A stretch of 44,902 nucleotides of DNA from Haloferax elongans ATCC BAA-1513. GTDB lineage: Archaea; Halobacteriota; Halobacteria; Halobacteriales; Haloferacaceae. Every line of letters starts with the position of its first letter. Within the stretch, counting starts at the first letter, position 1. Location of the stretch: the NCBI RefSeq assembly GCF_000336755.1, contig NZ_AOLK01000005.1, forward strand, positions 1 through 44,902, read 5' to 3'. The translations under genes were made by a program, and so were the position numbers. Below, one piece after another: positions 13,017 through 44,834 of this stretch. The notes under the pieces are model-generated. The model was not told the DNA's origin and did no database searches. It saw nothing but the letters and a program-made list of their open reading frames with translations.

Positions 13017-13550
13017 CTACCCGGATACCTGTTCGGTCTCAGTGCTCGCGCGTTGCTGACGGGCACGTTCGTAGCGTGTTCGCTCGTCCCGAGCGGTCGC
13101 CCAGTCGCCGAGGTCACCGTACACGTCATCGATCGTCCGGTCGTCGCTCGATTCTGCAGTGGCGACGGCGTCGACGGCCGCTGGCGTCGGAGCACCATAC
13201 GTGTCCTCGTACTCCTCGATCCGCGAGCTCAGTTCCCGAACGCGCTGTTGGAGGTCTTCGACGGAGTGGTCGGCCGCGAGCTGGTTGATTCGCCGCCACT
13301 CGAAGTAGGCGTCGTTGCGCTCGTACGTGGCCGGATGGCCGTCGTGGCGCGTGACGATACCGAGCTCACTGAACCAGCCCAGATATTTCCGAGCAGTTTT
13401 CGGGTCACAGTCGGAGACGTTGGCGATGGCGCTCGCTGTTGTCGGCTCACGAGTCTGGAGAATTGTCCCGTAGATGCGTTGCTCAACGTCGTCGCCACGA
13501 AACGCATCCTCGAAGGAGGGCGGGCCATCCGGTGACTCGCTGTTGGGCAT
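13017..13550 (-). CDS. Helix-turn-helix protein (DUF7342-like), putative antitoxin/regulator, pair 1
   Basis: A 177-residue protein from ATG 13550 (MPNSESPDGPPSFEDAF). Upstream in-frame codons to 13688 run through an inverted-repeat operator and are not taken as coding. The winged-helix unit spans about residues 25-95: QRIYGTILQTREPTTASAIA, CDPKTARKYLGWFSELGIV, then ATYERNDAYFEWRR. A coiled coil follows (VEDLQQRVRELSSRIEEYED). The paralogue at 43816-44391 has the same order (ATYERNQSYLNWRR). Each is followed immediately by a TumE-like gene, so this is probably the antitoxin and repressor. A copy of the TTAACCAACA inverted repeat lies 92 bp upstream. Confidence 0.65.
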   Translation of the reverse strand: MPNSESPDGPPSFEDAFRGDDVEQRIYGTILQTREPTTASAIANVSDCDPKTARKYLGWFSELGIVTRHDGHPATYERNDAYFEWRRINQLAADHSVEDLQQRVRELSSRIEEYEDTYGAPTPAAVDAVATAESSDDRTIDDVYGDLGDWATARDERTRYERARQQRASTETEQVSG

Positions 13551-13642: not shown

Positions 13643-13684
13643 TTAACCAACAAACGTTATTCTCTTGTGCTGTTCGTTGGTTAA
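13643..13684. promoter_or_regulatory. Inverted repeat TTAACCAACA...GTTGGTTAA (operator copy 1)
   Basis: The arms TTAACCAAC (13643-13651) and GTTGGTTAA (13676-13684) are perfect inverted repeats over a 42-bp span. The site lies upstream of the leftward helix-turn-helix/TumE-like pair. Three further copies with the same arms and nearly the same spacing occur at 38.4, 41.4 and 43.7 kb. Confidence 0.75.
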
Positions 13685-14812: not shown

Positions 14813-15057
14813 CACGTACCTCCGTCACGAACCGAACAGCGAGACAATTCGAGGTTGAGTCCGAATAGCCCGATTTCTTCAAATCCAAGTTCTCGCCACC
14901 GACCCTCTTCAAGTATGTACTCAGTTCGTTGTGTTGTCGATGACTCGTCGGTTGTATACGTCACTCGGTGCTGATCACCGGTCTGCCCGGTGTATTCGAT
15001 ACTGAGCGTTTTGATCGAAGGTAGAACTTCCGGCTTCGATAGTTGGTCTTCTTCCAT
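14812..15057 (-). CDS. Small uncharacterised protein between addA-like and Hint genes
   Basis: An 81-residue protein from ATG 15057, 95 bp after the AddA-like gene and overlapping the start of the Hint protein by one base. It looks like a compact beta protein: KTLSIEYTGQ, HRVTYTTDES, RTEYILEEGRWRELGFEE. No signal or membrane segment is seen. The pattern suggests a single small beta-sheet domain, possibly an accessory of the intein-derived protein, but I recognise no family. Confidence 0.5.
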   Translation of the reverse strand: MEEDQLSKPEVLPSIKTLSIEYTGQTGDQHRVTYTTDESSTTQRTEYILEEGRWRELGFEEIGLFGLNLELSRCSVRDGGT

Positions 15058-25436: not shown

Positions 25437-28400
25437 TCACTCGTCAGTGGTCTCTAACAGCTTATACAATTGCCAACCGCTCTCTGTGAGGGTGGCACCG
25501 TCCAGAATATTCTTTGCATATTTCTCTCCAATTTGACGGCGGCTCTTTTCGCAACCAACTGCATCCACGAGTTCACCAATCTTACCGATCCGCTTTGGCT
25601 CGACACCGTTGGCCTCACAGAACGCTTGGTATGCTTCGTGGGCGACTTTCGTCTTCACGTAGAGGAAGTCCACGGGGCTATCCTCTGGAATCTCTTTCTC
25701 ATCAGTAATGTGATACTCGGCGAATCGCTCCATCGAGTTCTCCTGAGTGAGTCCGTCGACGACGAAATCAGCCTCGGTCACGATGCGGCTGTACCCAGAG
25801 TCAACCCCGTACGTCTTGGGGAACTGTTCGACAGTTTCGTTCCACAGTTCGACCGGCAATTCGTCGCGCGTGTAGGTACTCCCGTTGCGCGTCTCACGAG
25901 TGACCGTCTCGACCTCGTCGGCGCTCGCGATACCCATGTCTTTGGCGGCGTGGATGAACGCTCGTCGGGGCACTCTATCATCGTCGGAGATGAAGTTGTG
26001 TTTGTCCTTGACGCGCACCCACGTCTGGAGGATTTCCTCGTCCGTGAACGGCCCTTCAATATTGTTGTCTCCGCGCACTTTCGTCAGGTGGGCGAAGTAG
26101 GTCAGCGCGTTGAACGTCGCCTTTCGTTTGTGGTCGTAGGCGACCTCGTTCGAGAGCATCACGAAGTAGTTCTCGGAGTCACCGAAGTGCTTGTGCGGGT
26201 GGGGGCCGCGGTAGCCTTTCGTCTTCCCAGTAATCTCTGCGAGCGAGTATCCGAACAGGTCACTGGGACCGCCGATGGACGAGCCGAATCTGTCGTCGAT
26301 GTCGTCACCGATGGCGTCGTCATCAAGCCACTCGTCTTGACGGTTCGCCACGTCGCGCTGTCGCATCCCTGCGACCGTCTGTGCGTAGTCGGGGTGGGAA
26401 CGCGGGTCGAACATCTTGAGGCCTTCAAAGAGCGGCGTGACGCGAGAGAGAGCGCCGTCGTCGTCGCCCACCCAGTAGGTCTCGGCAGCACGCGACTGGC
26501 TGGCCTCACCATACAGGCCTTCGACGGCGGCGACGTGACTCCCCAAGAGTGGGAAGCGACCCAGACCGAGTTCGATGGAAAGCGTCAGTGGGTCGTTTGG
26601 CCCAATCCCGGCGTCCTTCGCGGCGAAGTCGCCTGCTGAGAGTGCACCGGTCTTCTTCGAGCGCCACTCCTTGTAGAGCGGGAACGACGTGTGGCCCTTG
26701 TCACGGAGGATGAACGCCCAGTGGAGCAAGTCGTCGAACATGAAGTACATCTCTTCGGAGAGGTCATCCGAATCCTCCCGGGCGAGGTCTTCCTCCGAGG
26801 TGGGCGAGATGGGGTCGATAGTCACCTCACCGTCTGTCTCGTGCCACTCGTCGTCGCCTGCGGATGGTGGGCCGGCGGTGAACCAGTCGGGGTACGCATA
26901 ATCGACGTAGGCCTCCTGCCACGCAATCGACTCGTTGATCCACGAGAGAACCGGGAGTTCGTCGGGGTGATTCGTGATTCCGTCAAGGCGGTCTTCGTAC
27001 CACTGCTCTTCATCGTCGCTTGCTGCACGCCACGTATCAACCAGCGTCGTCAAGCCGGGCGACGGCGGGGCCACCTCGTAAAAGCGGTCAGTGAGGTAAT
27101 CGTCGAGGTCCACTTTGCGACCGGCAATCCGTGGGAGTTCGACCATGATACAGTCCACTCCTCGTTCGGTGAGGTACGCCGCCGTCGCGAGCGCTCCCTG
27201 TTCGCCGGGACCGCCGTAGCCAATTTCGAGGGCCTCGCCAATGGGACCGCGGCGAGACGCTCCTTCGTCTCGCTGGTCGCGGATGTACTCCCGGAGGTCC
27301 TCGCCGGACAACTCGTTACGAGCGGTCATGCGCTCGGTGAGGTCGTCCACGTCGATATCGGCCTCGTCCAAGAGGTTGAACGACGCCGCCTCGTTGTCCT
27401 GAATCAGGAGCGTCGTGGATACGTCGTGTTCGGCAAGGATGTCCAACAGCCGGAACTTGACGGCGTCTTTGAACTGCGTCGTCACCGGCGAGATAGCGGG
27501 CAGTTCTAACTCGTGAGCGGCGATTGCGTCGGCAATCCCCTCGGTGATGATGACGGGGCGGCCTTCTCGAATCGTATCCACGCCGTAAATCGGCTCCTCG
27601 CAGTAGTTCGCGTCGGTGAGCTTCTGCTTGAGGTACTTCGCATCGCTGCGGTAGTCGTTGGGGTGTGGGCGGCCCTTCTGGGTTCGAGACATACAGTAGC
27701 GAACCTGCCCGTCTTCGTCGTGGTACGGGAACAGATAGCGGCCACGCCACACACTGCGTACTTTCTCTCGGTCGGGGACTTCCGAGAGGTCGTACTCAGG
27801 GAGGTCTTCCATCTCGACGGTGGTGTCGTGCTCGTCGCTCAGGTAGCGTGCGATGCGTGCGTAGTCGGGTCGGAACAGGCCGGTCGCGATGAGTTGCGTC
27901 GGCGTGTAGCCTTCGTCAAGCAGGTGGTCAACACCGGCTCGCCACTTGCCGGGAATCCATCCAAGTTTCTTACTGTTGGCAGTGTGGTCTGTCCACCCGC
28001 GACCAATCGTATCGCGGTCGCCAAGGTGTCGATGGGCGCTGTGCGATTCGAGGTCTGCCGCCACGAGGTCGGTTGCCTCGTCCAAATTACCGGACAGTCC
28101 ACGGAAGAGGTCCGCCCGTTGCGGCCAGTCGGGGCCACAGTAATACTCGCGGGCCGTCTCGGGGAGTCGGAGCAACGGCGTCTGGTACGTGTTCGTCTCG
28201 CACCATCGGCAGTCGTCACTCTCGTCGGTCCAGCCCCGGTGGTCTCTGCATCCGACACGCTCGACCACGGTGATGTCTTCGGGCACGGCGCCGTGTTCGT
28301 CTTCGCCGTCGGTCGCGACGTCGGCGCACTCGGCACACGTCAGAACTTCGGCACAGTGGTCGCATCCGGGTTCGACCGCGTAGTGGTAGGTGTAATCCTC

Positions 28401-31400
28401 GTCGTTGTCGTTGACGCAGGGCCGCCATTCGATGTGGGCGATATGTGTCTCGTCGCCGCATTCATCACATGGGCCGACCATCACGCAGTCGGTACATCCC
28501 TCGACGTAGGTGGGATGTGCCTCACACGCTTCGGTGTACTCGTCTCGAAGGTGGTCTAGGAGGTCGTTGAACGCCTTGTTCTTCGGGATTGGTGCGTCAA
28601 TCTGGTCGTGGTAGTAGTCCACCGCTGCGGTGAACGTGTCTTCCCACCCGTCTGGTTCGCCTTCCGTGGGTACGAAGTCGAGTTCGTGAGCGAGCGTGTT
28701 CGTCAGGTCGGCGTAGTCGTCCGAGTCGTCGGTCGGCTCGGTCGGGCTGAGTGCTCCCGTGTCCGGTTCGGAGTCGACTTCCGGTTCTTCGTCTTCTTCT
28801 TCACTGTTGGCCTCCGACTCGTCGCCGTCTGCGTCCACTGCTGGCTCCGTCTCGGCCTCGGACTCTTCGGTGGATGATTCTGCGTCGATGACGATGGGCT
28901 TGCTCTCGGCGTCGCCTGCGCCCTCGTCGGCCACGCTCTCGGTGGGGTCGTCCAGTTCGATGGGCTTCGATTCGGTCTCGTCTTGGGTTGGGTCGTCCAA
29001 GTCGAGCGTCGAACTGGTGTCTGGTTCGTCCAGCACGAGGTCTTCGTCTTCGTCGTCCTGTGCCGACGGGACGCCTTCTGCGAACGCCGCAGCGACGTCT
29101 TCGTCGGTTGGGGCATCTTCGGGCTCCGGCGGCGGGCGTTCGGGGACGATTGGCCCGTGGTCTTCTTCATCGTCTGCCTCGTCGCCTTGACCACTTGCAG
29201 GGGTGGTCTCTGCTGGCTCGTCTGTACTCGTTTCTTCTTCGTAGTAGGTCTCGTAGAGTTCCCAGTCGATATCGTCCTCGCCGAGTGGGTCGGCCAGTCG
29301 GTAGCCAATGGTTTCTTCGACGAGAATCCCTGCGGCAATCGACCGCTCCATCTCCTCTTTGATTTCGTCCACCTCGTCGTCATCCATTCCGAAGGTGTTC
29401 TTGACGATGGGGACGATACCGAGGTCCTGTATCTCTTGGTCGTAGTCAGCACCAGCGAAGTCCCAGACGGCTTTCCACGACTCGGGAACATCACGGGGTG
29501 GCAGACGGTAGCCGTCTTGGCCACCTTCCATCTCTGCTTCTTCGAGTGTCTCGCGTTGAAGCGCGATATGGACGGCTGCTTCGACACGGGGTTTCGTCGC
29601 GTCCGTGTCGGTAAAGGGGCCGTGTCCGAATGCCATGCTCTCGAAGAACTGTTGGGCGACAGTATCCCCGGGGCTCGCTCCCATCCCAGTCCACACTTCG
29701 ACCCAGTGGTCGCGCTCGACGAAATCTTCGGGCCGACCGTGGAGGACGAGTTTCGCGTGCGTCCCGCGTGGGGGCGCAAGGAAGTAGCCTTCGTCAGTGT
29801 GAATCAGGTGGCCGGTTTTCACGGCGGCTTCGATGGCTTCTTCGTGGAGGTCCATCATCGCCACGCCGTTTTCGATGGCCTTCGTCAACACTTGGTAATT
29901 CAGCGGGGTCTCGTGGGCGGTGTTCGCCGCGTTCCAGACCTTCTCCCAGAAACGCCGACTCATGGGATTCTTCCCGCCGAAGTCTGCATCCGGGTAGTAC
30001 AGGTAGTCGATTTTCGGGAGCGGTTCGTCGCCGTCTCTGAAGGCTTCGTAGCTCATGTAGTAGTTCGCAAGGATGTCGTTGAGGCGAACCTGTGCTGGCG
30101 TTGCTGCTTCGTCGTCCAACTCAGAGGCCGCCTGTGCGGTGTGGTCGTAGTCGTACAGTAGCTCGGTTGCGAAGGTGTCGCGGAACTCACCGTCCCAGTG
30201 GTCTTTGGGGATGAGCGGCGTCAGGCTCTCGCCGTCATACACCTGCGGCATCGTATCGTCGGCGGCCTCGACCAGCGGGTTGGGCTTGTCGGGGCTCGCC
30301 GGGATGATGACGATTTCCCAGTCGTTTTCGTCGGGGACTTCGCCACCGAATTCCATCTCGGGGTAGAACGGCTGGTAGACACGCTGCCAATCCTGTTCGA
30401 GTTCTTCGAGGGTGTCGTATCGCTGTTCGACCGAGTTGGCGTACACCACCCATTCGTCTTCGTACTTGTCGTACCGGCCCCACGACTCGAAGGCGTTCGC
30501 AGACGCATTCGAGAGTTCTTCGGGGACGATTCGCCCACGTTGCTTCCCGTCTGCACCCTGCTGGTCGAACAGAACGAGGTCGCCGTCTTGGTCAATCCAC
30601 GTCGCTTGTTTCCCCTTGCGGATGAGTGCGAACTTCTGTTCGTCTTCATCATCCGACAGCGGGAGGTAGTCGGGTTTGTTGTAGAGGGTTCGTTCGACGC
30701 ACGTCTCGCCCTCGTCGTCGACGTATTCGTTGTAGTCGCGGATGTACGCGGGGTCTGCGAGAATCCCGTAGAGTCGTTGGGCGACCGCGTCACTGGCGGT
30801 GTTCTTCCGAATCCGACCGTCGGGGACGACGTACACGCATTTCTTGTCTTGTCGGTAGGCTCGAACGAGGTTCTTGAGCGTCCGGGTTGGTTTCTTCCCA
30901 CTCGTCTCGGCTTCGATGGTGATGTCACGCGCACCCGAGAAGCCGTACGGGAGTGGGTATTCTTGTTCGAGTTCGTTGATGGAGTCTCGAATCCGCCGTG
31001 GCGAGGAGTGGTCGATTTCACCGGGCAGTTCACCCTTCGCGTCTGGTCGCTCCTGTTTGACCAACTGCGGGACGATACTCACCGAGTAGTCCATCCGGGC
31101 GAACCAATCGAACGAGTGGGCCAGCAACTCACGGTGGAGTTGCGATGGCGAGGTCATTCCTTGGTCGGCGTCAAGGATGAACTGATGGCCGGCCTCGGTC
31201 AGACTGATCGCGCCCTCCGTGGATTCGAGGGTGTGCATCTTCGGGCCGTCGGCCACGATTTCGGTGTAGGCTTCGCGAGCGGCGGTGAGGTCTTGGCCGT
31301 CTTCGACGTCGTCAACGTCGTCCGGGCGCAACTCGTGCAGCGAAACGTACGCCGCCTCGTCCTCGTCGCGTTCGATTTCTTCTTCGGGGTCGTAGATGTC

Positions 31401-34400
31401 TTCGACGTTCTCGGTCGGGACGTAACGCCGAACGTGCTCGCGTGAGAGTTCCAGCCCGCCGGGGTAGTCGTCGAACGACCGTCCGGTGCGTTCTTCGAAG
31501 CGCTCGGCGACCGCTCGAATGGCGACGGCTTCGGTATCGCGTTCAATTTGGACTTCTCGAATCGCCTGCAACAGTTCGCGTTGGGTTCCTTCGTCGCTCC
31601 CAATATCGTGGATGAGCATAGCCGTCTCTTCCAACTTGGTTTCGAGTGGTGGGACGCCGTGGCGGTCTAACGACTGCTGGATGTACTCTTTTCGCTCCTC
31701 GCGACTGCGAAGCGGTGGGTAGTCGGCGAACGTCGCCAGTGGAAGGGTATCCGAAAGGATACTCTCGCCGTTTTCCTCCATCGCAATCCGCGTGAAAATG
31801 TTGTACTGGGGGATGTCTTGGACCATCCGTTCGGTGACTTCTTCCTCGAAGCGTCGTTGGATGATGTCGGCGTCGTCAGGCTCACCAATCCCGAAACTCG
31901 CCATCGTCCGTGAGTTCCCGAAGATTTCCTTGCGGGTCTGTTCCTTGATTTGGGAGGGATTCTGCATGGCGATGGTGATACCCATCTTGCCGGAGCGGGC
32001 TTTCGAGAGCATCTTCCCAATCCCCATTTCGTCGGATACGACGTCGTCGAACTCGTCGATGAGCGTAAAGAACGGATTGCGGGCGTGTTCTTCCTCGTCG
32101 CGTTCTTGAATCGTCGCCCAGATACGCCGGAGGACGGCGGTGGTCACGACCTGCTTGATGTCGTCGGAGCTGACGTTGACCTTCACGAGGATGATTTTGT
32201 TGTCTTCGACTGCATCCGAGAGGTTGACCGTCCCGTCGCGGTGGGCGACGATTCCGCGGGCGATTGGGTCTTCGACCCAGTGCTGGATACGACGAACGAC
32301 AGCGTCCACCTCCTCGTAGTCCATCTTCGCGATTTGCTTGGTGTAGCCCTGAATATTCTTCATCGCGTCGATGGTCTTCGCACGCTCGTCTTCGGTGTCC
32401 ACGTCTTCGAGGTCGTAGTCAGTGGACTTCTCCATCCCTTCGCGGTGGACGAGTTCTGCGAACGCTTCGCGAGAGGGTTTGGACTGGAGGACGTAGTACA
32501 TATCCAACAGCGTGAACGGCTTGTCCGACCGGATCATCGCACGGGCGATGTTGGTGGTGATCCCTTCCATCTTTGGCCCCCAGTAGTCACCGGCTTTCAG
32601 AATCGAGGTCAGGTCGTCAACGATAGACGACACCTCACGGTCGTACGCACGCTCGGTCGGTGAGGAGGCCGTCTCGAAGAAGTTGAGGCCAACCACGAGG
32701 TCGAAATCCTTTGAGCCGGGTTCGATGTAGATGAGGTCGTCCATCCGCTCTTCGGGGAGTTCGCGCATCAGGTCGTCGATGGTGTCACCCTTCGGGTCGA
32801 TGAAACAGAAGCCGTGGCCCTTCCGAGCAATCTGGTTCAGGATGTTCTTCTCGGAGGTGGATTTCCCCATGCCAGTCATGCCGAAAATGACCATGTGACG
32901 GAACGCCTGTTCGACGTCGACGCCGATTTCGTGAAAGCCCACGCGGTTGTCCTTGAGCCACCCTAACCAGATGGGCGATTCGGGATGGTCGGTGTGAACG
33001 TCGATGAGTTCTTGCCGGACGTCCGAGCCCATATACACGTTCCCGTCGTCGGCGTGAACTTTCACCTCGTAGGCACGGTCTTCGTTGGTGTGGGGGTCAC
33101 GACACCACTCACGTTCGACGCCGACCGGCGTGAAGTCGAACCCCTCTGCTTCGCGCACGGGTGCGGGGAGGTTGCGTCCCGAGTCTTCCTTCTGGTAGAC
33201 GGTCTTGCCGTCGTCAGTCTCGACTTCGTAGCCGTGTTCTTCGCGGTAGGCGACTTCGCGTTCGAGTTTCGAGATGAGAACTTCGGCTTCGTTCTCGTTG
33301 AACTTCTCGCGGATGTCTTCGCGAGTGAGTTCGCCCGACTGGAACAGGTCTGCAAACTTCCGGAACCCATCGCGTTTCTCGCCTTCCCACTGAGCGCTCG
33401 GTGGCTGTGGTTTGGACTCGTCTTTACTGGAAGCGACGGTCTTGGTGCGAGCGGTCGGGGCGTCGTCGTCTGCGATATCGCGGGTGTCTGTGCCGTCGAT
33501 GGTGGTGCCGTCGATAGCGGGCGTCTCGTCGGTGTCCGTATCGCCGGTCTCGGAGGCTTCGACCGTCTCGCCCGGTGCTGCGACGGCGTCTTCGTTTCCA
33601 GCAGGGAGTTCGGGGACTGTGTTCGTGAGGTTGTCGTCGGCAGCCGCCCGTTCGTGGCCGTACTGGTCGTACGGGAGTGGGTCGATGGACCTGACCTTCC
33701 GGGGGGCCGCCGCCGGTGCTTGCGAGGTGAGCGCTCGGCGCGTCCACTCGACGTTCGGCGTGTCGATATCGCCGTTCGGGATGTGTGCAACTGCGGCGAG
33801 TTCGGGGATGGTAAGTGCGACCGAATTCTGTTTCTTGCGTCGTTCCCACTCGCGGCCTGCTGTCATCTCCAGTTTTGGAATGAGGTCCTTCTTCTGGTAG
33901 GGGACTTGGCCGAATCGTTGGCCGAACTCTTGATTCTGATACGTCGACCGGAAGGCGTTGCCGATGCTGTTTGCTTCCTTGACGACGAATTCCTCGGTAT
34001 TCCCGAAGACGAAGTACCGAATGTTGACGTAGAACCCCGATTCGTCAGCTTGGTCTTCGATTGCTTTGGCGATTCGCAGGTGTTTCTCTGAGGGGTCCTT
34101 GATGTAGGGGTTGATGTGGCTTTCGACGACCTCTCCTTCTTTGAGATCGGACGCGACACGGTCGGCCCCCCGGACGTAGAGCCCCCCTTCGCGCCAGTTG
34201 TCGCCGGCTGGCGTGAACACGACTTGGGCGATGGCCGTCGAATCGTTCTGTCCGATGAGTGCCGAGGTGAGCGCTCGAAGCGCCGCCTTGTCCGGTGGGA
34301 AACCACCGGGTGCGTCAGGACCGAGGCCTTTGATGGGTCGATAGCGATTCTCTTCGAGTTTGAGTTCACCACCGGCGACGTACTGGCCTTCTCGAACACC

Positions 34401-34781
34401 CGGGAAGGGTTTGGAGAGTCGTTTCAGACCGATTCGTGGGTAGTTCCCGGTGATGACTTTCCGGAGTTCGCCAAACCAGTAGTCGTCGGGCATCCCCCAG
34501 ACGAATTTCAGTTTTTTTCCATCGTACCAGATTTCGTAGGAGAACGGTGGTGGGTTCTCTTCTTTGTCGAGGAGTCGACGTAGTCGGGTTCGCTTGACGG
34601 TGACATCTTGGAACGCCGAAATCACTTCAGGGCCGTATCGCTGGCCGGGGCCGCCCTTGTAGGGGCGTGCCTTGATGAAGTTATAGTCAAGGTCGTTCAG
34701 TCGCCCAGCGAGTTGCTGGAGGAGTTCGTCGGTGACGGGTTGTGCTTTGTACGAATCGTCAGAGAGGAATGGGAAGTTCAT
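25437..34781 (-). CDS. Giant fusion protein: VirD4/HerA-type motor ATPase, nuclease-like segment, zinc cluster and TOPRIM primase-like region
   Basis: A 3114-residue protein from ATG 34781, with no frameshift. Residues 1-370 are an unassigned N-terminal region. After a Thr/Asp/Pro-rich linker, the motor domain has Walker A GMTGMGKST (634-642), FIDPKGD soon after, and Walker B LIDEF (907-911) followed by AMQNPSQIKEQ, the order in TraD/VirD4/HerA-type DNA pumps. Residues about 1235-1320 (ERPDAKGELPG, then DITIEAETSGKKPTRTLKNL) resemble a PD-(D/E)XK fold. An Asp/Glu-rich linker spans about 1848-2030 and a Cys-rich zinc cluster about 2090-2215 (PCDECGDE, CDHCAE, CAEC, CRWCE). A TOPRIM-like region has VIITEGIADAIAAHE (Glu 2414) and LLIQDNE (2458-2464). 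The C-terminal 80 residues look like a winged helix. It lies 12 bp after a membrane-protein gene. Confidence 0.8.
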   Translation of the reverse strand: MNFPFLSDDSYKAQPVTDELLQQLAGRLNDLDYNFIKARPYKGGPGQRYGPEVISAFQDVTVKRTRLRRLLDKEENPPPFSYEIWYDGKKLKFVWGMPDDYWFGELRKVITGNYPRIGLKRLSKPFPGVREGQYVAGGELKLEENRYRPIKGLGPDAPGGFPPDKAALRALTSALIGQNDSTAIAQVVFTPAGDNWREGGLYVRGADRVASDLKEGEVVESHINPYIKDPSEKHLRIAKAIEDQADESGFYVNIRYFVFGNTEEFVVKEANSIGNAFRSTYQNQEFGQRFGQVPYQKKDLIPKLEMTAGREWERRKKQNSVALTIPELAAVAHIPNGDIDTPNVEWTRRALTSQAPAAAPRKVRSIDPLPYDQYGHERAAADDNLTNTVPELPAGNEDAVAAPGETVEASETGDTDTDETPAIDGTTIDGTDTRDIADDDAPTARTKTVASSKDESKPQPPSAQWEGEKRDGFRKFADLFQSGELTREDIREKFNENEAEVLISKLEREVAYREEHGYEVETDDGKTVYQKEDSGRNLPAPVREAEGFDFTPVGVEREWCRDPHTNEDRAYEVKVHADDGNVYMGSDVRQELIDVHTDHPESPIWLGWLKDNRVGFHEIGVDVEQAFRHMVIFGMTGMGKSTSEKNILNQIARKGHGFCFIDPKGDTIDDLMRELPEERMDDLIYIEPGSKDFDLVVGLNFFETASSPTERAYDREVSSIVDDLTSILKAGDYWGPKMEGITTNIARAMIRSDKPFTLLDMYYVLQSKPSREAFAELVHREGMEKSTDYDLEDVDTEDERAKTIDAMKNIQGYTKQIAKMDYEEVDAVVRRIQHWVEDPIARGIVAHRDGTVNLSDAVEDNKIILVKVNVSSDDIKQVVTTAVLRRIWATIQERDEEEHARNPFFTLIDEFDDVVSDEMGIGKMLSKARSGKMGITIAMQNPSQIKEQTRKEIFGNSRTMASFGIGEPDDADIIQRRFEEEVTERMVQDIPQYNIFTRIAMEENGESILSDTLPLATFADYPPLRSREERKEYIQQSLDRHGVPPLETKLEETAMLIHDIGSDEGTQRELLQAIREVQIERDTEAVAIRAVAERFEERTGRSFDDYPGGLELSREHVRRYVPTENVEDIYDPEEEIERDEDEAAYVSLHELRPDDVDDVEDGQDLTAAREAYTEIVADGPKMHTLESTEGAISLTEAGHQFILDADQGMTSPSQLHRELLAHSFDWFARMDYSVSIVPQLVKQERPDAKGELPGEIDHSSPRRIRDSINELEQEYPLPYGFSGARDITIEAETSGKKPTRTLKNLVRAYRQDKKCVYVVPDGRIRKNTASDAVAQRLYGILADPAYIRDYNEYVDDEGETCVERTLYNKPDYLPLSDDEDEQKFALIRKGKQATWIDQDGDLVLFDQQGADGKQRGRIVPEELSNASANAFESWGRYDKYEDEWVVYANSVEQRYDTLEELEQDWQRVYQPFYPEMEFGGEVPDENDWEIVIIPASPDKPNPLVEAADDTMPQVYDGESLTPLIPKDHWDGEFRDTFATELLYDYDHTAQAASELDDEAATPAQVRLNDILANYYMSYEAFRDGDEPLPKIDYLYYPDADFGGKNPMSRRFWEKVWNAANTAHETPLNYQVLTKAIENGVAMMDLHEEAIEAAVKTGHLIHTDEGYFLAPPRGTHAKLVLHGRPEDFVERDHWVEVWTGMGASPGDTVAQQFFESMAFGHGPFTDTDATKPRVEAAVHIALQRETLEEAEMEGGQDGYRLPPRDVPESWKAVWDFAGADYDQEIQDLGIVPIVKNTFGMDDDEVDEIKEEMERSIAAGILVEETIGYRLADPLGEDDIDWELYETYYEEETSTDEPAETTPASGQGDEADDEEDHGPIVPERPPPEPEDAPTDEDVAAAFAEGVPSAQDDEDEDLVLDEPDTSSTLDLDDPTQDETESKPIELDDPTESVADEGAGDAESKPIVIDAESSTEESEAETEPAVDADGDESEANSEEEDEEPEVDSEPDTGALSPTEPTDDSDDYADLTNTLAHELDFVPTEGEPDGWEDTFTAAVDYYHDQIDAPIPKNKAFNDLLDHLRDEYTEACEAHPTYVEGCTDCVMVGPCDECGDETHIAHIEWRPCVNDNDEDYTYHYAVEPGCDHCAEVLTCAECADVATDGEDEHGAVPEDITVVERVGCRDHRGWTDESDDCRWCETNTYQTPLLRLPETAREYYCGPDWPQRADLFRGLSGNLDEATDLVAADLESHSAHRHLGDRDTIGRGWTDHTANSKKLGWIPGKWRAGVDHLLDEGYTPTQLIATGLFRPDYARIARYLSDEHDTTVEMEDLPEYDLSEVPDREKVRSVWRGRYLFPYHDEDGQVRYCMSRTQKGRPHPNDYRSDAKYLKQKLTDANYCEEPIYGVDTIREGRPVIITEGIADAIAAHELELPAISPVTTQFKDAVKFRLLDILAEHDVSTTLLIQDNEAASFNLLDEADIDVDDLTERMTARNELSGEDLREYIRDQRDEGASRRGPIGEALEIGYGGPGEQGALATAAYLTERGVDCIMVELPRIAGRKVDLDDYLTDRFYEVAPPSPGLTTLVDTWRAASDDEEQWYEDRLDGITNHPDELPVLSWINESIAWQEAYVDYAYPDWFTAGPPSAGDDEWHETDGEVTIDPISPTSEEDLAREDSDDLSEEMYFMFDDLLHWAFILRDKGHTSFPLYKEWRSKKTGALSAGDFAAKDAGIGPNDPLTLSIELGLGRFPLLGSHVAAVEGLYGEASQSRAAETYWVGDDDGALSRVTPLFEGLKMFDPRSHPDYAQTVAGMRQRDVANRQDEWLDDDAIGDDIDDRFGSSIGGPSDLFGYSLAEITGKTKGYRGPHPHKHFGDSENYFVMLSNEVAYDHKRKATFNALTYFAHLTKVRGDNNIEGPFTDEEILQTWVRVKDKHNFISDDDRVPRRAFIHAAKDMGIASADEVETVTRETRNGSTYTRDELPVELWNETVEQFPKTYGVDSGYSRIVTEADFVVDGLTQENSMERFAEYHITDEKEIPEDSPVDFLYVKTKVAHEAYQAFCEANGVEPKRIGKIGELVDAVGCEKSRRQIGEKYAKNILDGATLTESGWQLYKLLETTDE

Positions 34782-37956: not shown

Positions 37957-38106
37957 CCCACAGTTCTTGGAAGTCTGAGGTGCAAGTATCCCGATGGTTC
38001 ACCAATCATTCTCGACGTCACTCGAATCGACCAAACAACTTTGCTGTGGCACCGTGTGGACACTACTGGAGACAGACTGTGTCACATGCGTCTCCACAAT
38101 CCCCCT

Positions 38107-38259
38107 ATGACGAGTGATTCGACGGCACTTGGTCGATGCCCTGACTGCGGCGAAGAGATTGAGGCATACCAGTCGATCATCGAGTTCGAGGATGGCGATG
38201 GGACAACTGGCGTGTTTGCAGAGTGCTACTCATGCGACGAAGTTGTCCGCCCAGAGTGA
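38107..38259 (+). CDS. Small zinc-ribbon protein (intact copy)
   Basis: A 50-residue protein from ATG 38107. It has RCPDCGEEIEAYQSIIEFED and then FAECYSCDEVVRPE, i.e. C-x-x-C ... C-x-x-C, a minimal zinc ribbon of a kind frequent in haloarchaea. It stands alone between the ATPase gene and the DUF6788-like gene. A degenerate copy at 43451-43604 keeps most of the nucleotide sequence. Such tiny zinc proteins often act as regulators or RNA/DNA-contacting proteins, but nothing specific is known here. Confidence 0.7.
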   Translation: MTSDSTALGRCPDCGEEIEAYQSIIEFEDGDGTTGVFAECYSCDEVVRPE

Positions 38260-38414: not shown

Positions 38415-38454
38415 TTAACCAACAAAATTTTTGATTAGTCCTTGTGTTGGTTAA
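38415..38454. promoter_or_regulatory. Inverted repeat TTAACCAACA...TGTTGGTTAA (operator copy 2)
   Basis: Perfect 10-bp arms at 38415-38424 and 38445-38454. It ends 16 bp before the start of the DUF6788-like gene, so a bound protein would cover the promoter. Confidence 0.8.
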
Positions 38455-38470: not shown

Positions 38471-38794
38471 ATGTCCTACGAACCACCGACGCCGCCGACG
38501 AATCTCCCCACGGAAGTCGTCAACGCCCTCAACAAGTTGGGGCAGGACCGCCTTCGGGACGTTGCTCACTATGCCGAAGAGTTGGCCGAACACAAGGAGC
38601 GCGAGGGTCGTCTCGAGGAAGAGTCACCGGAAGGTGAGTTCGAAGAACGGTCGGACGACCTTCCAGACGATGTCCCCACGAAGGCGACGATCACCATCAA
38701 AGAGATCAACGACAACCGCTACTACTACTGGCAGTGGAGAGAGGGAGACAAAATCAAGTCCAAGTATAAAGGCCCGGTCAATTCTGATAAGTAG
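38471..38794 (+). CDS. DUF6788-like small protein
   Basis: A 107-residue protein from ATG 38471 (MSYEPPTPPTNLPTEVVNAL). An upstream TTG at 38444 lies inside the operator and is rejected. The first half has a helix ending in a charged coiled region (LRDVAHYAEELAEHKEREGR); the second half ends in RYYYWQWREGDKIKSKYKGP, the pattern I associate with DUF6788, a short beta domain found in archaeal and phage/plasmid proteins. It follows directly after the TTAACCAACA inverted repeat. No partner gene follows; downstream are origin-2 repeats. It may be a regulator or a small nucleic-acid-binding protein. Confidence 0.65.
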   Translation: MSYEPPTPPTNLPTEVVNALNKLGQDRLRDVAHYAEELAEHKEREGRLEEESPEGEFEERSDDLPDDVPTKATITIKEINDNRYYYWQWREGDKIKSKYKGPVNSDK

Positions 38795-38825: not shown

Positions 38826-39014
38826 CACACCCCGTGTGCGAAATGATTTTTCTCATCACTAAGGGGCCCGTGTGAGAGATGAATCGAATGACAAGTTGAG
38901 AGGGGACACACCCCGTGTGCGAAATGAAATTTTGCATATGAATGTCATACACATCTAGTAAATCAAACTATTCGTCAGGGAAAGCCCACACACACACCGT
39001 GTGCGAAATGAATT
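38826..39014. repeat. Origin-2 ORB-like repeats downstream of orc1 copy 2
   Basis: Copies of CACACCCCGTGTGCGAAATG occur at about 38826-38847, 38867-38884 (degenerate), 38907-38930 and 38993-39014. They lie in the 3' flank of the second orc1 gene, all in one orientation. The repeat differs from the origin-1 family but has the same plan of a dyad with a short G- or C-run. Confidence 0.75.
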
Positions 39015-39041
39015 CGACGCCGTCGTCGCCGTCTTTTCGTG

Positions 39042-40388
39042 TTATTTCCCTTCAAAGAAATCCGTTATCTGAGCATTGACAACAGATTTGATAAGGTCTC
39101 CTTCTTGTTCGACCTCTTCGAGTCGGAAATCGGCCTGAAGTGTCTCGGCAACCACTTCTGGGTCGTCGACGAAAGTGTACTCCTTGTGAACCCCGCTCCC
39201 ATAACCTCGTCCTCGTTTCGCCGATGTGACGAAGTTGTAGGTTTCAGCTTCACTCATATACCGTAGATAGGAGTCGCGTGACTTTTCGTCAGCGTCCAGC
39301 AGGTCAGTGAGATACTGATAGACGCGGTACGCAACCGTACTTGGAACGGCGTTCAGGTTGCGCTGGGAATACACAGGGACGATAGCAGTTGCGTAGAGGG
39401 AGAGCTTCTTTTGCGTTGACAGCCCCTGCATCTGGGTTAACGTGCGGTCCCTTTCGGCTTCTGTCTGGGCGTCGCGAACGTGGTCTTCACGAATCGTATC
39501 TTCACCCGCGCGATCCGCAATCTCACCGGCCTTTCTGAATAGATCGATTGCTTTTCGAGCGTCCCCGTGGTCCTGGGCAGCGAATGCTGCACTGAGCGGA
39601 ATAATACCGTCCTCGAGGACATCGTCTTGAAATGCGTCACGACGTCTTTCAAGAATCGACTGGAGTTGATTCGCGTCGTAGTCAGGGAAGACGACGTCTT
39701 GCGGGTTAAATGAACTCTCGGCTCGCCCGTCCAGGTCCTCCATAAACCGAGGATCGTTCGTGAGTGCAGCGACGGACACGTGCCCCTCAATCCGACCGAG
39801 TTGAGAAGCGCGCGACAGCTGGTAGAGCAGTTTCGAATAGGCCGGTTCGTCGTTCGGATCTCGTTGTCGACCAACTAAGAGGTCGACCTCGTCGAGAATG
39901 ACGATAACCGAGTCGAAATTGTTGCTCAAAATCTCGTAGAACCGATTGAGCTTCTGGTCTGTCGAGATGCCACTCTGTGGGATGTTGACGTCAACACCAG
40001 CTTCGTCAGCTGCGTTCTTGGCCAAGCGATACACAGCACGGTCATGAGATTTGATTGTCTGGCAGTTGATTTTGATGACGCCAAAGCGGTCACCTTGTGA
40101 GTTCGCGAGTTCGAGTACTTGCTGGCAGACTGCGTTGATGATGAGCGACTTTCCGGTGCCGGATGGACCATAGAGCAGCATATTTGGAGGCCGATTGCCC
40201 TGTAGCGCCGGTCGAAGGTAGGTAATTATATCGTCTAGCTGGTCATCGCGACCGACGATTCTGTCCTCGTCGATGACAGCATCAGGATCAAGAAGTCCTT
40301 TGTCTCGAAAGACAGAATTCTGAACCCCCTGTTGAAGACGCCCTTTGATAGATTCTGAGAGAGATTGTTGATCGTCACCGTCAGCCAT
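39042..40388 (-). CDS. orc1: Orc1/Cdc6 replication initiator (copy 2)
   Basis: A 448-residue AAA+ initiator from ATG 40388 (MADGDDQQSLSES); a longer frame to 40439 overlaps an origin repeat and is not used. Walker A is YGPSGTGKS, Walker B VIVILDEVDL, and the lid motif GDARKAIDLFRKAG is present. The C-terminal winged helix starts near KKLSLYATAIVP and ends around EYTFVDDPEV. Length is normal for the family. It is flanked on both sides by a repeat family distinct from that of the first orc1, so the two initiators probably serve different origins, possibly relics of plasmid fusion. Confidence 0.95.
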   Translation of the reverse strand: MADGDDQQSLSESIKGRLQQGVQNSVFRDKGLLDPDAVIDEDRIVGRDDQLDDIITYLRPALQGNRPPNMLLYGPSGTGKSLIINAVCQQVLELANSQGDRFGVIKINCQTIKSHDRAVYRLAKNAADEAGVDVNIPQSGISTDQKLNRFYEILSNNFDSVIVILDEVDLLVGRQRDPNDEPAYSKLLYQLSRASQLGRIEGHVSVAALTNDPRFMEDLDGRAESSFNPQDVVFPDYDANQLQSILERRRDAFQDDVLEDGIIPLSAAFAAQDHGDARKAIDLFRKAGEIADRAGEDTIREDHVRDAQTEAERDRTLTQMQGLSTQKKLSLYATAIVPVYSQRNLNAVPSTVAYRVYQYLTDLLDADEKSRDSYLRYMSEAETYNFVTSAKRGRGYGSGVHKEYTFVDDPEVVAETLQADFRLEEVEQEGDLIKSVVNAQITDFFEGK

Positions 40389-40426
40389 ATTTGCGGGATT
40401 ACGTCGAAGGCATAAATAGATGTGGG

Positions 40427-41082
40427 GGACCGTGTGCAAGATTAAATTTGGTGAATTCAGACGATAGAGACGATTTTAACAGGGCCGATTTAGAAGACCG
40501 GTTGACCGTGGGCGAAATCAATTACTCAGAGACACCCCGTGTGCAAAATGAAATCAGGTATGTCGAGGAAGTAGCCCGGCTCAATCGAATTCTATCGATC
40601 CCCCCTCCGTGTGCGAAATGAAAATCTGAACGTGAGATACGGTTGGATAATGTTGGCGACTTAACCGACAAATCACACTGAAGCCCTCAAAGACGAGGCA
40701 AATGTACCCCCACACCCCGTGTGCGAGATGAATTTAGAGAGGAGGTTGGCAAGTGTGGGCGGAGAAACAACGACAGAATGGACGGTAGAAGCTGTGAGAG
40801 GACGTATACACGGAAGAACAGCACTGTGTATAGAACGGATGAATTGCGAGGGAAGCAGTTCTGTCACAAAACAAACTGTTTTATTTTAGCTGACCCTAAC
40901 CCCATTACGGAATCAGTTGACAAGGTATCTATATAAAAATTTCTCTAGACATAGACGTTCTCTAATTTCGTCTTCTCGACTTCTCTCTCGTACAAAATCG
41001 TCTGCTTTGCTCGTCTTCCATCTTTTCTCGGCAATCACCCCTCTCACCTTTTTCTAGATTTCATTTCGCACACGGGGTGTGG
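40427..41082. other. Replication origin 2: direct and inverted ORB-like repeats around an AT-rich core
   Basis: Direct copies of CACACCCCGTGTGCGAAATG or variants are at about 40427-40447, 40531-40554, 40602-40625 and 40711-40734, with a degenerate one near 40505. An inverted copy (ATTTCATTTCGCACACGGGG...) is at 41058-41082, followed by GGGGG. Between 40860 and 40990 the sequence is AT-rich (CTATATAAAAATTTCTC). This is the expected layout of an origin beside orc1 copy 2. No protein gene was seen from 40389 to 41643. Confidence 0.75.
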
Positions 41083-41234: not shown

Positions 41235-41390
41235 ACACACCCCTCGTCAAGACTGTAAATCAGATGGATGCCAATATTTGACCACCCCTCGTCAAGAGTG
41301 AAAGAACCTGGCTGGAAGGTACACAGATCGTACAGTTCACCTCTAGTCCCCTAGATTACCGTTCTGTTTCACTCTTGACGAGGGGTGTGT
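41235..41390. repeat. Third ORB-like repeat family
   Basis: ACCCCTCGTCAAGACTGTAA (about 41239), ACCCCTCGTCAAGAGTGAAA (about 41284) and its inverted form TTTCACTCTTGACGAGGGGT (about 41368) lie within 155 bp. All end in an ACACACC- or GGGGTGT-type G-string like the other two families, but the core differs. No third orc gene is in the window. Confidence 0.65.
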
Positions 41391-41444: not shown

Positions 41445-41485
41445 TTAACCAACAGATATTCTCGACTCGCGGTTTTGTTGGTTAA
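41445..41485. promoter_or_regulatory. Inverted repeat TTAACCAACA...TGTTGGTTAA (operator copy 3)
   Basis: Perfect 10-bp arms at 41445-41454 and 41476-41485. Only a very short frame follows (ATG 41506, MARYQLLMLQ then stop), so the gene once controlled from here may have been lost. Confidence 0.75.
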
Positions 41486-41631: not shown

Positions 41632-41651
41632 TGAATCAGTGATTCATTGAT
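41632..41651. repeat. Octamer repeats at the 3' end of the par operon
   Basis: TGAATCAG and TGATTCAT follow each other in 8-bp phase, overlapping the stop codon of the ParA partner gene. The same octamers form the cluster upstream of parA. Confidence 0.6.
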
Positions 41652-42096
41652 CGACGTCTTGCTTTGCGAGTTCCCGAATCTTCTCTTTCGTTTCCTCTTG
41701 GTGTTCGCCAAACGCCACCTCGAAGATCCCACGATAGAAGTGTTTGTTCTTCTCCAGCGTGACACCCTCGCGTTTCAGCTGCTTTTTCAGGCGAGTAAAT
41801 GTAATCTCGATATCCTCGCTCTGCTCCGGTTCTACGTATATCGTGGCTGAGTCCCAGTCCTCACGGATATTCAGTGGTTCATCGTCTGCCTCTCCCGCTT
41901 CACTTGCAGACGATTCGGTGGTACTCGTGGTTGAGCCCCGCTGCTGATTCGACTGGTTTCCCGTGGCCTTCCCTGAACCTCGAGTTTCTGCTTCTGTTTC
42001 TGACGACGTCGCTGCAGTTTCCTCTTCGGCGCTAGCGTCCTCTTCGTCCCCTTCGTCCGACGGATTCTTGAATCGCTCATCCATTCCTCGGGGCAT
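41644..42096 (-). CDS. ParA partner: putative centromere-binding protein
   Basis: A 150-residue protein from ATG 42096, 2 bp after parA ends. The first 85 residues are an acidic, Ser/Thr/Gln-rich, probably disordered tail (EEDASAEEETAATSSETEAE). The last 65 contain SATIYVEPEQSEDIEITFTR and LKREGVTLEKNKHFYRGIFE, then helix HQEETKEKIRELAKQD, plausibly a small DNA-binding fold of strand-helix-helix type. ParA partners that bind the centromere commonly have a disordered arm that stimulates ParA ATPase plus a ribbon-helix-helix domain. The 8-bp repeats around the operon would be its binding sites, serving partition and autoregulation. Confidence 0.65.
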   Translation of the reverse strand: MPRGMDERFKNPSDEGDEEDASAEEETAATSSETEAETRGSGKATGNQSNQQRGSTTSTTESSASEAGEADDEPLNIREDWDSATIYVEPEQSEDIEITFTRLKKQLKREGVTLEKNKHFYRGIFEVAFGEHQEETKEKIRELAKQDVDQ

Positions 42097-42098
42097 AC

Positions 42099-43010
42099 TT
42101 ATGCCTCCACTTGGGCCTTGTCGAACGCCCGCTCCATCGTCTTTGCAACTTCTAGGAAGAGGTCACGCTCTACTTGCTGATCGTTCGGGTCTTCCCATTC
42201 GAAAATATCTCGTCCGTTGTCCCATGCGCGCTGAATCGCCACTCGCATCGGGAGCTTGAAAATCGGTGCCATCGACGCGAAAGACTCGTCGAAGGCGTTG
42301 AGGAATTTTTTCGACTGACCGTCGTCCCGGTACATATTCGCCAGGAGTCCGACGATTGCAATCTCGATCTGCTGGTTGCTCTCGATAGACTCCAGCTGGT
42401 CCCACAGGTCGTCGAGTGCGTCCCGTGATGTTGCTTGAGTCTGTGCAGCCAGGAAGACGTTCTGCGCTGCGATGAACGCCGCGTCGGTCAGGACGGAGAG
42501 GTCTGGTGGGCAGTCGATTACGATGAAATCGTAGTTGTAGCCGTCGTCAACCATTGCTTCGAGGGCGAGCTTCAACGAGAGACGGGCATTCGCATCGTCC
42601 ATCCAATCTCGGGCAAGCCCCATGTCCTTGTGACTTGGAATGAGGTCGAAGTTCAGATGGTCGTACTCGTCGGCCTCGATCACGATCTCCGACAGACTAG
42701 TATCGTGCGTGCGCGGGTTGTCGACGAGGACGTCGAGGAGGTTCGCGTCATCGGTGACCAGTGTGTTGGGGAGTTCGTTCTTCGGACTCGAAGGGTCATT
42801 CTCGTCGCCCGGCCCCAGACCAAGTCCTTTCGTCATGTCGGCCTGTGGGTCCATGTCGATCGCCAGAACGTCGTGGCCGCGAGTAGCCAACGCCGCTGCG
42901 CTGTTGATCGTTGCCGTTGTCTTTCCAGTCCCGCCTTTCTGGTTCCCGAAGGCAATCGTGGGGATGCCTGTGGATGGTGTGACGCCCCATCCACGGGGTG
43001 TCTCGCTCAT
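42099..43010 (-). CDS. parA: ParA-type plasmid partition ATPase
   Basis: A 303-residue protein from ATG 43010. It has the deviant Walker A NQKGGTGKTT, the A' motif LAIDMDPQADMTKGLGL, and Walker B YDFIVIDCPPDLSVLTDAAF. The N-terminus before Walker A is short (about 23 residues), as in type Ib ParAs, which are partnered by small unrelated DNA-binding proteins rather than ParB. That fits the partner gene just downstream. ParA forms ATP-dependent patterns on the nucleoid that move plasmid copies apart. Octamer repeats lie in its promoter, so the partner is likely to repress the operon. Confidence 0.95.
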   Translation of the reverse strand: MSETPRGWGVTPSTGIPTIAFGNQKGGTGKTTATINSAAALATRGHDVLAIDMDPQADMTKGLGLGPGDENDPSSPKNELPNTLVTDDANLLDVLVDNPRTHDTSLSEIVIEADEYDHLNFDLIPSHKDMGLARDWMDDANARLSLKLALEAMVDDGYNYDFIVIDCPPDLSVLTDAAFIAAQNVFLAAQTQATSRDALDDLWDQLESIESNQQIEIAIVGLLANMYRDDGQSKKFLNAFDESFASMAPIFKLPMRVAIQRAWDNGRDIFEWEDPNDQQVERDLFLEVAKTMERAFDKAQVEA

Positions 43011-43013
43011 AGT

Positions 43014-43425
43014 TCGATCATTGAATCACTGACTCATAAATCCATTCCAGACATTCAGTTGTATCTTCTTTATCCCGATTCTGTCGTAATCGAGCAGTAG
43101 ATGGGTTGAAGTGCCTAAATCGCTCTAGCATGATTGAATCATTGATTCATGGATTCACTGATTCACTGATTCATTGAATCAAAATCTCTTGCCCTCTTTG
43201 ATTCTTTGATTCAGTGAAGGAATGCTCCTGGTGGTGAGTACTTGATTCCCCAATTCAGTGTTTCAAATATTCACTGATTCATTGAATAACTGATTTTAGG
43301 ATTCATGGATTCAATGACTCTCGTCTTAGTGATTGTCAGTGACTCTCCGAATCATGTGTTCCTGGACTCTTGGTTTCCAAAATTAACAACTTCATGGACT
43401 CTTTGACTCATTGATTCTTTGATTT
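43014..43425. repeat. Iterated octamers: probable centromere (parS) and par promoter
   Basis: Octamers of the form TGATTCAT/TGAATCAC/TGATTCAC stand in exact 8-bp phase at 43022-43037 and as a run of six at 43135-43182. Many more single or paired copies continue to about 43425 (for example ATTCACTGATTCATTGAAT near 43270). Short phased repeats upstream of parA are typical centromeres for strand-helix-helix partner proteins, which bind as arrays of dimers. No protein gene was found here. Confidence 0.8.
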
Positions 43426-43450
43426 GGGCATCTACCGAGCGAAGGCAACT

Positions 43451-43604
43451 ATAGAGGTTCAAGAGACGGTACTTGGTCGATGTCCTGATTGCGGCGAAGA
43501 GATCGAAGCCTATCAATCGATTACTGAGTTCGAGGACGCCGATGGGACAACTGGTGTGTTCGCAGAGTGCTACTCGTGCGACCGGAGTTGTCCGTCCAGA
43601 GTGA
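43451..43604 (+). pseudogene. Degenerate copy of the small zinc-ribbon gene
   Basis: The segment aligns with 38107-38259 over its full length with one extra base. The ATG has become ATA (43451), and a one-base insertion after the second Cys pair (CCGGAG against CGAAG) shifts the frame so that CYSCDEVVRPE becomes CYSCDRSCPSRV and the stop is passed. RCPDCGEEIEAYQSI is still intact in frame, so decay is recent. Either two independent lesions or selection on only the N-terminal part explains this; a pseudogene is the simpler view. Confidence 0.7.
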
Positions 43605-43700
43605 CGAACTGGCGCTACTTGTTCTCAGCTTTCGAGATGTCTCATTTTCGATGTACTTGTAATAAAGCACTACACCAGATATGAGACATCGACAACTGTG

Positions 43701-43739
43701 TTAACCAACAAATGGGCGTATCTAACCTCTGTTGGTTAA
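43701..43739. promoter_or_regulatory. Inverted repeat TTAACCAACA...TGTTGGTTAA (operator copy 4)
   Basis: Perfect 10-bp arms at 43701-43710 and 43730-43739. It ends 76 bp before the start of the second helix-turn-helix/TumE-like pair. Confidence 0.8.
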
Positions 43740-43815: not shown

Positions 43816-44391
43816 ATGAAAGAACCACGCTCTGAACTGAAGGCTGATGCCGAGGAGCGAACTAAATCGCCAGACTTCGACTCTCTGACCTCGCCAGAGG
43901 AGCTTGTCCGTGGGGAGCGGACGCGAGACGATTTTTTTGATGCTGTTCTGGGACTCGCCAATCCAGCGACCGCCAGCGAAGTTGCAGACCTCGCAGGCCA
44001 TGGCGTCGACGCTGCGAGAGAGTACCTCGAGTGGTTCGAACATATGGGTATCGTGAAACAGGTTACCGAGTCGCCGGCCACGTACGAGCGTAACCAATCA
44101 TACTTGAACTGGCGGCGGGTCCAGACGCTCCAAGACGAGTATTCGTCAGCAGAGCTCCTTGAGTTCTTGAAAGACGAGGCAGCGCGGGCAGAGGAGTTGG
44201 CCGAGGAGTTCGATGTCGACTCGCCGGAAGCGGTCTCTATCTCAAGGCACGCATCGGCTACTGAACAATCGATAGAAGCTGTTTGGGAGGCTGTTTCTGC
44301 GTGGAAGACGGCTCGCCGTCGGGTTGACCTTCTCGAACGGGCATTAGCAACTGAGTCGGGTGACGCTGCTGATCAGCGAACGGCAGTATGA
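43816..44391 (+). CDS. Helix-turn-helix protein (DUF7342-like), putative antitoxin/regulator, pair 2
   Basis: A 191-residue protein from ATG 43816 (a GTG at 43810 is possible). It resembles the 13017-13550 protein throughout: DDFFDAVLGLANPATASEVA, AGHGVDAAREYLEWFEHMGI, then ATYERNQSYLNWRR. A helical segment follows (SAELLEFLKDEAARAEELAE), and the C-terminal part includes SAWKTARRRVDLLERAL. Its last codons overlap the start of the TumE-like gene (ATGA), so translation is coupled. A TTAACCAACA inverted repeat lies upstream, as for pair 1. Confidence 0.7.
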   Translation: MKEPRSELKADAEERTKSPDFDSLTSPEELVRGERTRDDFFDAVLGLANPATASEVADLAGHGVDAAREYLEWFEHMGIVKQVTESPATYERNQSYLNWRRVQTLQDEYSSAELLEFLKDEAARAEELAEEFDVDSPEAVSISRHASATEQSIEAVWEAVSAWKTARRRVDLLERALATESGDAADQRTAV

Positions 44392-44834
44392 CAGGGCGGG
44401 ATGAGGGTAGTGGGTCTCATCGAGTTTCTGGTGCCCCAATTGATTTTGACCGCTTGGACGTCATCCAAGATCGATTTGTTACCGACGAGCGATTCTCTCA
44501 GATAGTCGACCGACCTGAATTTGCCCCTGAACGGCTGGTCTGTGTGTGCGATACACGGTTCTACCCCTCGAGTGTTCAAAATGCTCGAGTAGAGATTGTC
44601 TGGTTCGAGAACGGCGACTTCTCGCTACATTACCACGAAGATCACGAGCAAGGAACATTCGATCATCGGTGGGACCGCCATCCATCGGATCACAACGCTC
44701 GCGACCATATCCATCCCGGTCCAGATGCACCGACGCCTGGAGAAGATTCGTCCCACCCCAACGATTGGCGTGACGTCCTCTCAACGGCTCTTGCCGAGAT
44801 TGAAGACCGTCAGCGTGCATTCTGGGAGGAGTAA
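44388..44834 (+). CDS. TumE-like (DUF6516-type) putative toxin, pair 2
   Basis: A 148-residue protein from ATG 44388, overlapping the upstream gene by 4 bp. The signature loop is DHRWDRHPSDHNARDHIHPG then PDAPTPGEDSSHP, closely matching ECRWDRHPNPHNTRDHFHPP in pair 1. The N-terminal half is beta-rich (ARVEIVWFENGDFSLHYHED) and the end is helical (DWRDVLSTALAEIEDRQRAF). The shared Trp-Asp-Arg-His and His-Asn-x-Arg-Asp-His residues are likely functional. The N-terminal halves differ more between the copies than the loop does. Toxin function is inferred from pairing with a small regulator. Confidence 0.6.
   Translation: MTGRDEGSGSHRVSGAPIDFDRLDVIQDRFVTDERFSQIVDRPEFAPERLVCVCDTRFYPSSVQNARVEIVWFENGDFSLHYHEDHEQGTFDHRWDRHPSDHNARDHIHPGPDAPTPGEDSSHPNDWRDVLSTALAEIEDRQRAFWEE

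Follow-up and report, generated by a model that had tools for sequence, protein, structure and literature searches.

The 44,902-nt window analyzed here, meaning the whole stretch of DNA under study, opens a 106,236-bp contig in a 3.95-Mb genome. It contains replication and partition genes, two DUF7342 operons, and a short gene, named X here, for a protein without a Pfam match. Among these lie four copies of a candidate operator with the pattern TTAACCAACA-N19..22-TGTTGGTTAA. The relevant features are listed below.

12574-13008, minus strand: second copy of the partner gene (E 2e-34 to 44388-44834)
13017-13550, minus strand: second DUF7342 gene (E 1.7e-23), 32% identical to the DUF7342 gene at 43816-44391
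13643-13684, minus strand: predicted operator copy 4, 42 bp with one arm mismatch, 92 nt upstream of a DUF7342 gene
38415-38454, plus strand: predicted operator copy 1, exact, 40 bp, overlapping the X promoter and ending 16 nt before the X ATG
38471-38794, plus strand: gene X, 107 aa, predicted as two helices and then a three-stranded sheet with YYYWQWREGDKIKSKYKGPV; probable site-binding autoregulator
39042-40439, minus strand: orc1/cdc6 replication initiator, a frequent neighbor of X
41445-41485, no strand assigned: predicted operator copy 2, exact, 41 bp, intergenic, flanked by the orc1/cdc6 gene and the par operon's 3′ end
42099-43010, minus strand: ParA, with a small partner gene downstream at 41644-42096
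43701-43739, plus strand: predicted operator copy 3, exact, 39 bp, 76 nt upstream of the DUF7342 start
43816-44391, plus strand: DUF7342 (winged-helix) gene (E 2.7e-32), first of a two-gene toxin-antitoxin (TA)-like pair
44388-44834, plus strand: DUF7342 partner gene without a Pfam family, 41% identical to 12574-13008

Site copies on the contig

A sequence-only reading of this DNA had proposed one operator family at four places on the replicon, with nearly invariant arms, unrelated centers, and spacers of 19-22 bp, and all of these points were borne out. Three copies are exact and the fourth, at 13643, has a single mismatch (right arm CGTTGGTTAA, spacer 22), with arm centers 29-32 bp apart across the four. 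The pattern TTAACCAACA-N19..21-TGTTGGTTAA had no match in 100 shuffles, and none is expected by chance. An additional copy, the fifth and also exact, lies outside the window, at 92503-92542, some 0.7 kb ahead of another orc1/cdc6-like gene on this contig; the remainder of the genome beyond the contig has no exact copy. The genome's single X gene and all of its exact sites are located on one contig, with five copies when the mismatched one is included.

Three of the window copies precede genes, as had been noted: the copy at 38415 precedes X, and those at 43701 and 13643 each precede a DUF7342 gene followed by a second small gene. The two DUF7342 operons are paralogs (32% and 41% identity) and both have a TATA-like element near -28. 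The copy at 41445 has no real gene close behind it, with the orc1/cdc6 gene about 1 kb downstream.

Several other features of the window deserve mention. Repeats resembling CACCCCGTGTGCGAAATGA flank the orc1/cdc6 gene on both sides (38827-41080) and are probably origin iterons, and direct and inverted copies of CACCCCTCGTCAAGAGTG(AAA) adjoin the ParA operon (41237-41385), possibly as the centromere of that par system. A small zinc-finger gene (CPDCGEEIEAYQSI) is duplicated at 38041-38259 and 43424-43610, with one copy frameshifted and each upstream of an operator. The immediate neighbor of the 13643 operator is a LAGLIDADG homing-endonuclease/intein-like protein (13829-14815). A single 3114-codon frame with an ATPase-like segment (HMVIFGMTGMGKSTSEKN) spans 25437-34781 and is very long for a plasmid gene.

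Distribution among haloarchaea

The earlier reading had suggested scanning haloarchaeal replicons for the pattern and the genes downstream. The exact pattern is present in 260 of 391 sampled genomes of the class Halobacteria, with up to 30 matches per genome, whereas the reversed pattern had none in the same 391 genomes. Scans of viral and genome contigs returned 53 and at least 119 stretches. The carriers are plasmids and viruses, in about two thirds of the sampled haloarchaeal species, and among 234 distinct matches 219 have spacers of 20-23 bp, most often 21 or 22. The commonest first gene behind a site belongs to the same ∼107-aa family as X.

Site-bearing replicons that were examined usually encode an X, and across seven genomes 70 of the 75 sites listed are on X-bearing contigs. 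By tblastn, X was found on 199 plasmids, for which the named genera are all haloarchaeal, and Halobacterium virus ChaoS9 has X together with three sites. Genomes with a strong X match have sites in 213 of 216 cases (mean 8.0 sites) compared with 47 of 175 for the others (mean about 0.5; p 2e-58), a co-occurrence that is partly circular because the query alignment defining strong and weak matches was built from X genes behind sites. X and its sites could also both track plasmid load.

The site at the X promoter

Avoiding the bias of the site search, 60 genomic X genes from other genomes were picked by protein similarity alone. In 55 of these, an exact site ends 4-16 nt (mostly 12-16 nt) before the X start; the remaining five have no exact palindrome of the searched form. 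Spacers at X promoters vary freely, yet the 42 distinct versions with a 21-bp spacer keep AAACTAT after the left arm. This heptamer looks like a BRE/TATA element, so promoter occlusion would be the likely effect of a protein bound there. Divergent haloarchaeal X genes have changed but still palindromic arms in the same place, TTACCCCACA..CGTGGGGTAA (L222) and CTAACCAACA..TGTTGGTTAG (L224). Haloarchaeal X genes are often divergent to a pair comprising a MarR/HTH gene and a DUF6036 nucleotidyltransferase gene, and they often adjoin orc genes. On pNRC200 of Halobacterium NRC-1 (L208, near 5960), the X promoter site is without its left arm while the X gene is intact, a natural operator mutant.

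Bacterial relatives and arm-residue co-variation

Relatives of X also occur in bacteria. In a Candidatus Tritonobacter metagenome-assembled genome (MAG; L161), a tandem pair of exact sites precedes the gene of a 105-aa protein whose YYY..R.G.KV.SKYLG sheet is shared with X. Profile comparison between haloarchaeal X and the bacterial X-like proteins gave 97% probability (E 2.5e-11) over 42 residues of the beta domain, and a search with the bacterial profile reached the window X at E 2.7e-7. X-like proteins are encoded in 13 of 44 genomes from the Tritonobacter phylum, and in 63 of 285 from the phylum to which an Omnitrophica MAG belongs. The X family is taken to be older than the haloarchaea. 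Matches to the site in Clostridium (L098), Psychromonas (L157), Omnitrophica (L120), and Aerophobetes (L093) were judged to be chance, having short or odd spacers, a hairpin, or an intragenic position.

Just upstream of 62 of 83 bacterial X-like loci is a palindrome with 10-bp arms and a 17-24-bp gap, compared with 0.05% of shuffled upstream regions in a search that imposed ACA..TGT inner ends; the other 21 have no exact palindrome of that form. Spacers are 20 bp in 48 and 22 bp in 11. The spacing of about three helical turns, proposed from the window copies, is a constant of the whole family, with spacers of 20-23 bp from haloarchaea to Omnitrophota. Bacterial X promoters (L285-L290, L323-L367) often have two operator copies 56-59 bp apart, which suggests cooperative binding.

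The arms differ among bacterial X-like proteins, and arm bases 4-5 co-vary with one residue of the third beta strand, equivalent to S97 of the window X. Among 52 test loci, F is paired with CC or CT in 23 of 23, Y with CC in 11, AC in three, and TA in one, H or Q with CA in 10 of 11, S with AC in the only case, and R with AC in both cases (permutation p 0.00005, or 0.005 after clustering at 60% identity). A rule fixed in advance, that serine occurs if and only if the bases are AC, held at 47 of the 52 loci, the exceptions being three Tyr and two Arg proteins with TTAAC. The residue is therefore a determinant of arm sequence, or a marker of one, and not a complete code.

Bacterial X genes overlap or adjoin a gene for an NTP_transf_8 (PF12281) nucleotidyltransferase at 9 of 14 and 28 of 31 loci, and one has a DUF3990 gene as its partner. 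The arrangement with the nucleotidyltransferase is that of a toxin-antitoxin operon, and from it an antitoxin origin for X may be guessed. Given the linkage of site and gene, the co-occurrence of the two, and the same architecture in bacteria with co-varying arms, X very probably binds the site and autoregulates its own gene.

Copies away from the X gene

None of 228 sites lies inside a gene, compared with 42% of random positions; genes were predicted here by a composition-based caller, which recovered most of the annotation of ChaoS9. Placement at random within genes, which had been named as grounds for abandoning the operator idea, is not what these sites display. Sites not at X are overrepresented 50-150 nt ahead of gene starts (93 observed vs 57 expected, p 5e-8), and the genes behind them are enriched for DUF7342 (13 vs 0 per 100) and for MarR/TrmB/HTH and AbiEi-like regulators. 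DUF6610 genes also recur straight after sites (L185, L196, L115, L119), at 6 vs 1 per 100 in the background, which is not significant. A role as promoter operators is too narrow as the whole explanation because 46 of the 228 sites (20%) lie between convergent genes, with nothing obvious to control, a share similar to or slightly above the 15% expected from random intergenic placement. Of the three ChaoS9 sites, two are located at the 3′ ends of genes. A promoter regulon therefore accounts for many of the copies, though not for every one.

The proposal that a regulon extends beyond local autoregulation was upheld in part. A replicon-wide regulon of X is more likely than not. The copy at 38415 is explained by local autoregulation, as the site through which X, the probable binder, would control its own gene. 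For some of the other copies an architectural role is possible.

In the strongest alternative, the scattered copies would be architectural or centromere-like, with X bridging or looping them to compact, pair, or segregate the plasmid and repressing its own promoter only as a by-product. The convergent and 3′-end placements just described fit such a role, as do the intergenic position of sites in every context, their confinement to the replicon that encodes X, and the location of X beside orc genes and often near parA. A centromere would usually be clustered at parA, which the sites are not, and co-resident plasmids share identical sites, from which incompatibility would be expected. The enrichment upstream of regulator genes favors transcription, and proximity to orc genes is only weakly above chance, with 16 vs 9 sites 600-1400 nt upstream. 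With so small an excess, a tie to replication origins was also rejected. We regard the architectural alternative as unlikely, though deserving of attention. The sites were likewise rejected as terminators, as most copies have no following T-run typical of intrinsic terminators.

It is improbable that the sites are bound by another, host-encoded regulator, with X merely the commonest target gene. Many HTH proteins, chiefly DUF7342, are encoded directly behind sites, including two of the four in the window, and 47 genomes have sites without a strong X, but DUF7342 is present in all 391 genomes irrespective of sites and was rejected as the binder, and arms co-vary with X homologs in other phyla, far from haloarchaeal hosts. 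More improbable still is an origin of the copies in a mobile element or recombination cassette, as its leftovers or its edges (short inverted repeats, integron-like or dif-like sites): two window copies follow the duplicated zinc-finger fragments and sites are found on plasmids and viruses, but the fragment homology stops 75-140 bp before the sites, spacers vary (18-24) around unrelated centers, no recombinase is regularly linked, and the X-promoter copy keeps a fixed distance from the start codon.

Structure of X and comparison with known systems

An AlphaFold2 model of X has helices at residues 14-22 and 25-50 and a sheet of strands 73-79, 82-91, and 94-100, with medium confidence (mean pLDDT 74.5, pTM 0.40). 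Searches of the PDB by sequence and structure found no significant or credible relative, and the model had no Foldseek match at E < 0.9, with VIA Z at most 3.6. Weak rows for histone, Rad2, and PCNA structures were not accepted as relatives. The arm-binding and AP2-like beta-sheet domains have a three-stranded antiparallel sheet of similar size, and one such domain, from a P4-like integrase (3rmp), is among the weak Foldseek rows, but the resemblance is general only, without a significant structural match. One bacterial X weakly resembles the Pfam family DUF6788 (PF20586), with E 0.0042, along its YYY..R.G.KV..YLG segment, but all tested X proteins fell under its curated cut-off (best 17.7 vs 27.2 bits) and the window X had no match.

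Operators of KorB are spread over one replicon, RK2. X is likewise plasmid-encoded with sites dispersed over its own replicon, five of them on the contig described here. KorB, from the IncP plasmid RK2, is a plasmid-encoded protein that controls genes over long range and is linked to partition (PMC11790492). X differs from KorB in its size of ∼107 aa and in having no ParB/KorB domain in Pfam, and its site comprises two 10-bp arms about 20 bp apart, whereas the KorB site is a compact palindrome.

In type IV AbiEi/AbiEii systems, the antitoxin is in an operon with a nucleotidyltransferase-like toxin and binds inverted repeats, sometimes several, at its own promoter (PMC7319586). X resembles AbiEi in the inverted-repeat site at its promoter and, in bacteria, in adjoining a nucleotidyltransferase gene. 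Pfam scans of X and bacterial X found neither the N- nor the C-terminal AbiEi domain, the bacterial partner is NTP_transf_8 and not DUF1814 as for AbiEi, and, unlike AbiEi, haloarchaeal X does not usually share an operon with a toxin gene. Of the traits typical of TA-type antitoxins, the palindrome at the own promoter is present at the 55 of 60 haloarchaeal and 62 of 83 bacterial loci given above, while overlap with a downstream toxin-like gene is present in bacterial X but was not observed for the window X. The open-access literature searched yielded neither X nor its site, and nothing relevant on the arm sequence, DUF6788, NTP_transf_8, or DUF6036.

Proposed mechanism and significance

Taken as a whole, the palindromes are likely binding sites of X, a repressor of its own gene with a probable replicon-wide regulon. 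The sequences themselves show linkage of site to gene and to replicon, as well as co-variation; X binding, repression, the regulon, and an antitoxin role are what we infer. The N-terminal two-helix part would probably serve oligomerization, and the C-terminal sheet, as modeled, would read the 10-bp arms. X may act as a dimer, or a dimer of dimers, that holds both arms on one face of the DNA with about three helical turns between them and leaves the site center unread. The site at the X gene spans the promoter, with a TATA-like element between the arms, an arrangement by which X would repress itself. On haloarchaeal plasmids and viruses, extra copies appear to have built up at intergenic places on the replicon that encodes X. 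Many precede, by 50-150 nt, operons of regulators or of a TA-like kind (DUF7342 pairs, MarR/HTH with nucleotidyltransferase, AbiEi), so that X probably sets a replicon-wide regulon. In bacteria, X comes first in an operon with the NTP_transf_8 nucleotidyltransferase, where an antitoxin or autoregulator would sit.

A broader reading, held tentatively and with slightly more doubt than confidence, is that X defines a new and widely distributed family of sequence-specific DNA-binding proteins, one that has a fold of its own and a readable code between one beta-strand residue and arm bases 4-5, and that arose as the autoregulator of bacterial nucleotidyltransferase TA operons and became a replicon-wide master regulator of plasmids and viruses in haloarchaea.

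To our knowledge, little is known of replicon-wide control in haloarchaeal plasmids and viruses, and X and its site offer a candidate regulator, an operator, and a testable list of targets for these replicons. The correspondence between arm and residue would be a protein-DNA specificity code that can be tested by single-residue swaps, and the finding as a whole links a small uncharacterized family to the TA-like nucleotidyltransferase operons of bacteria.
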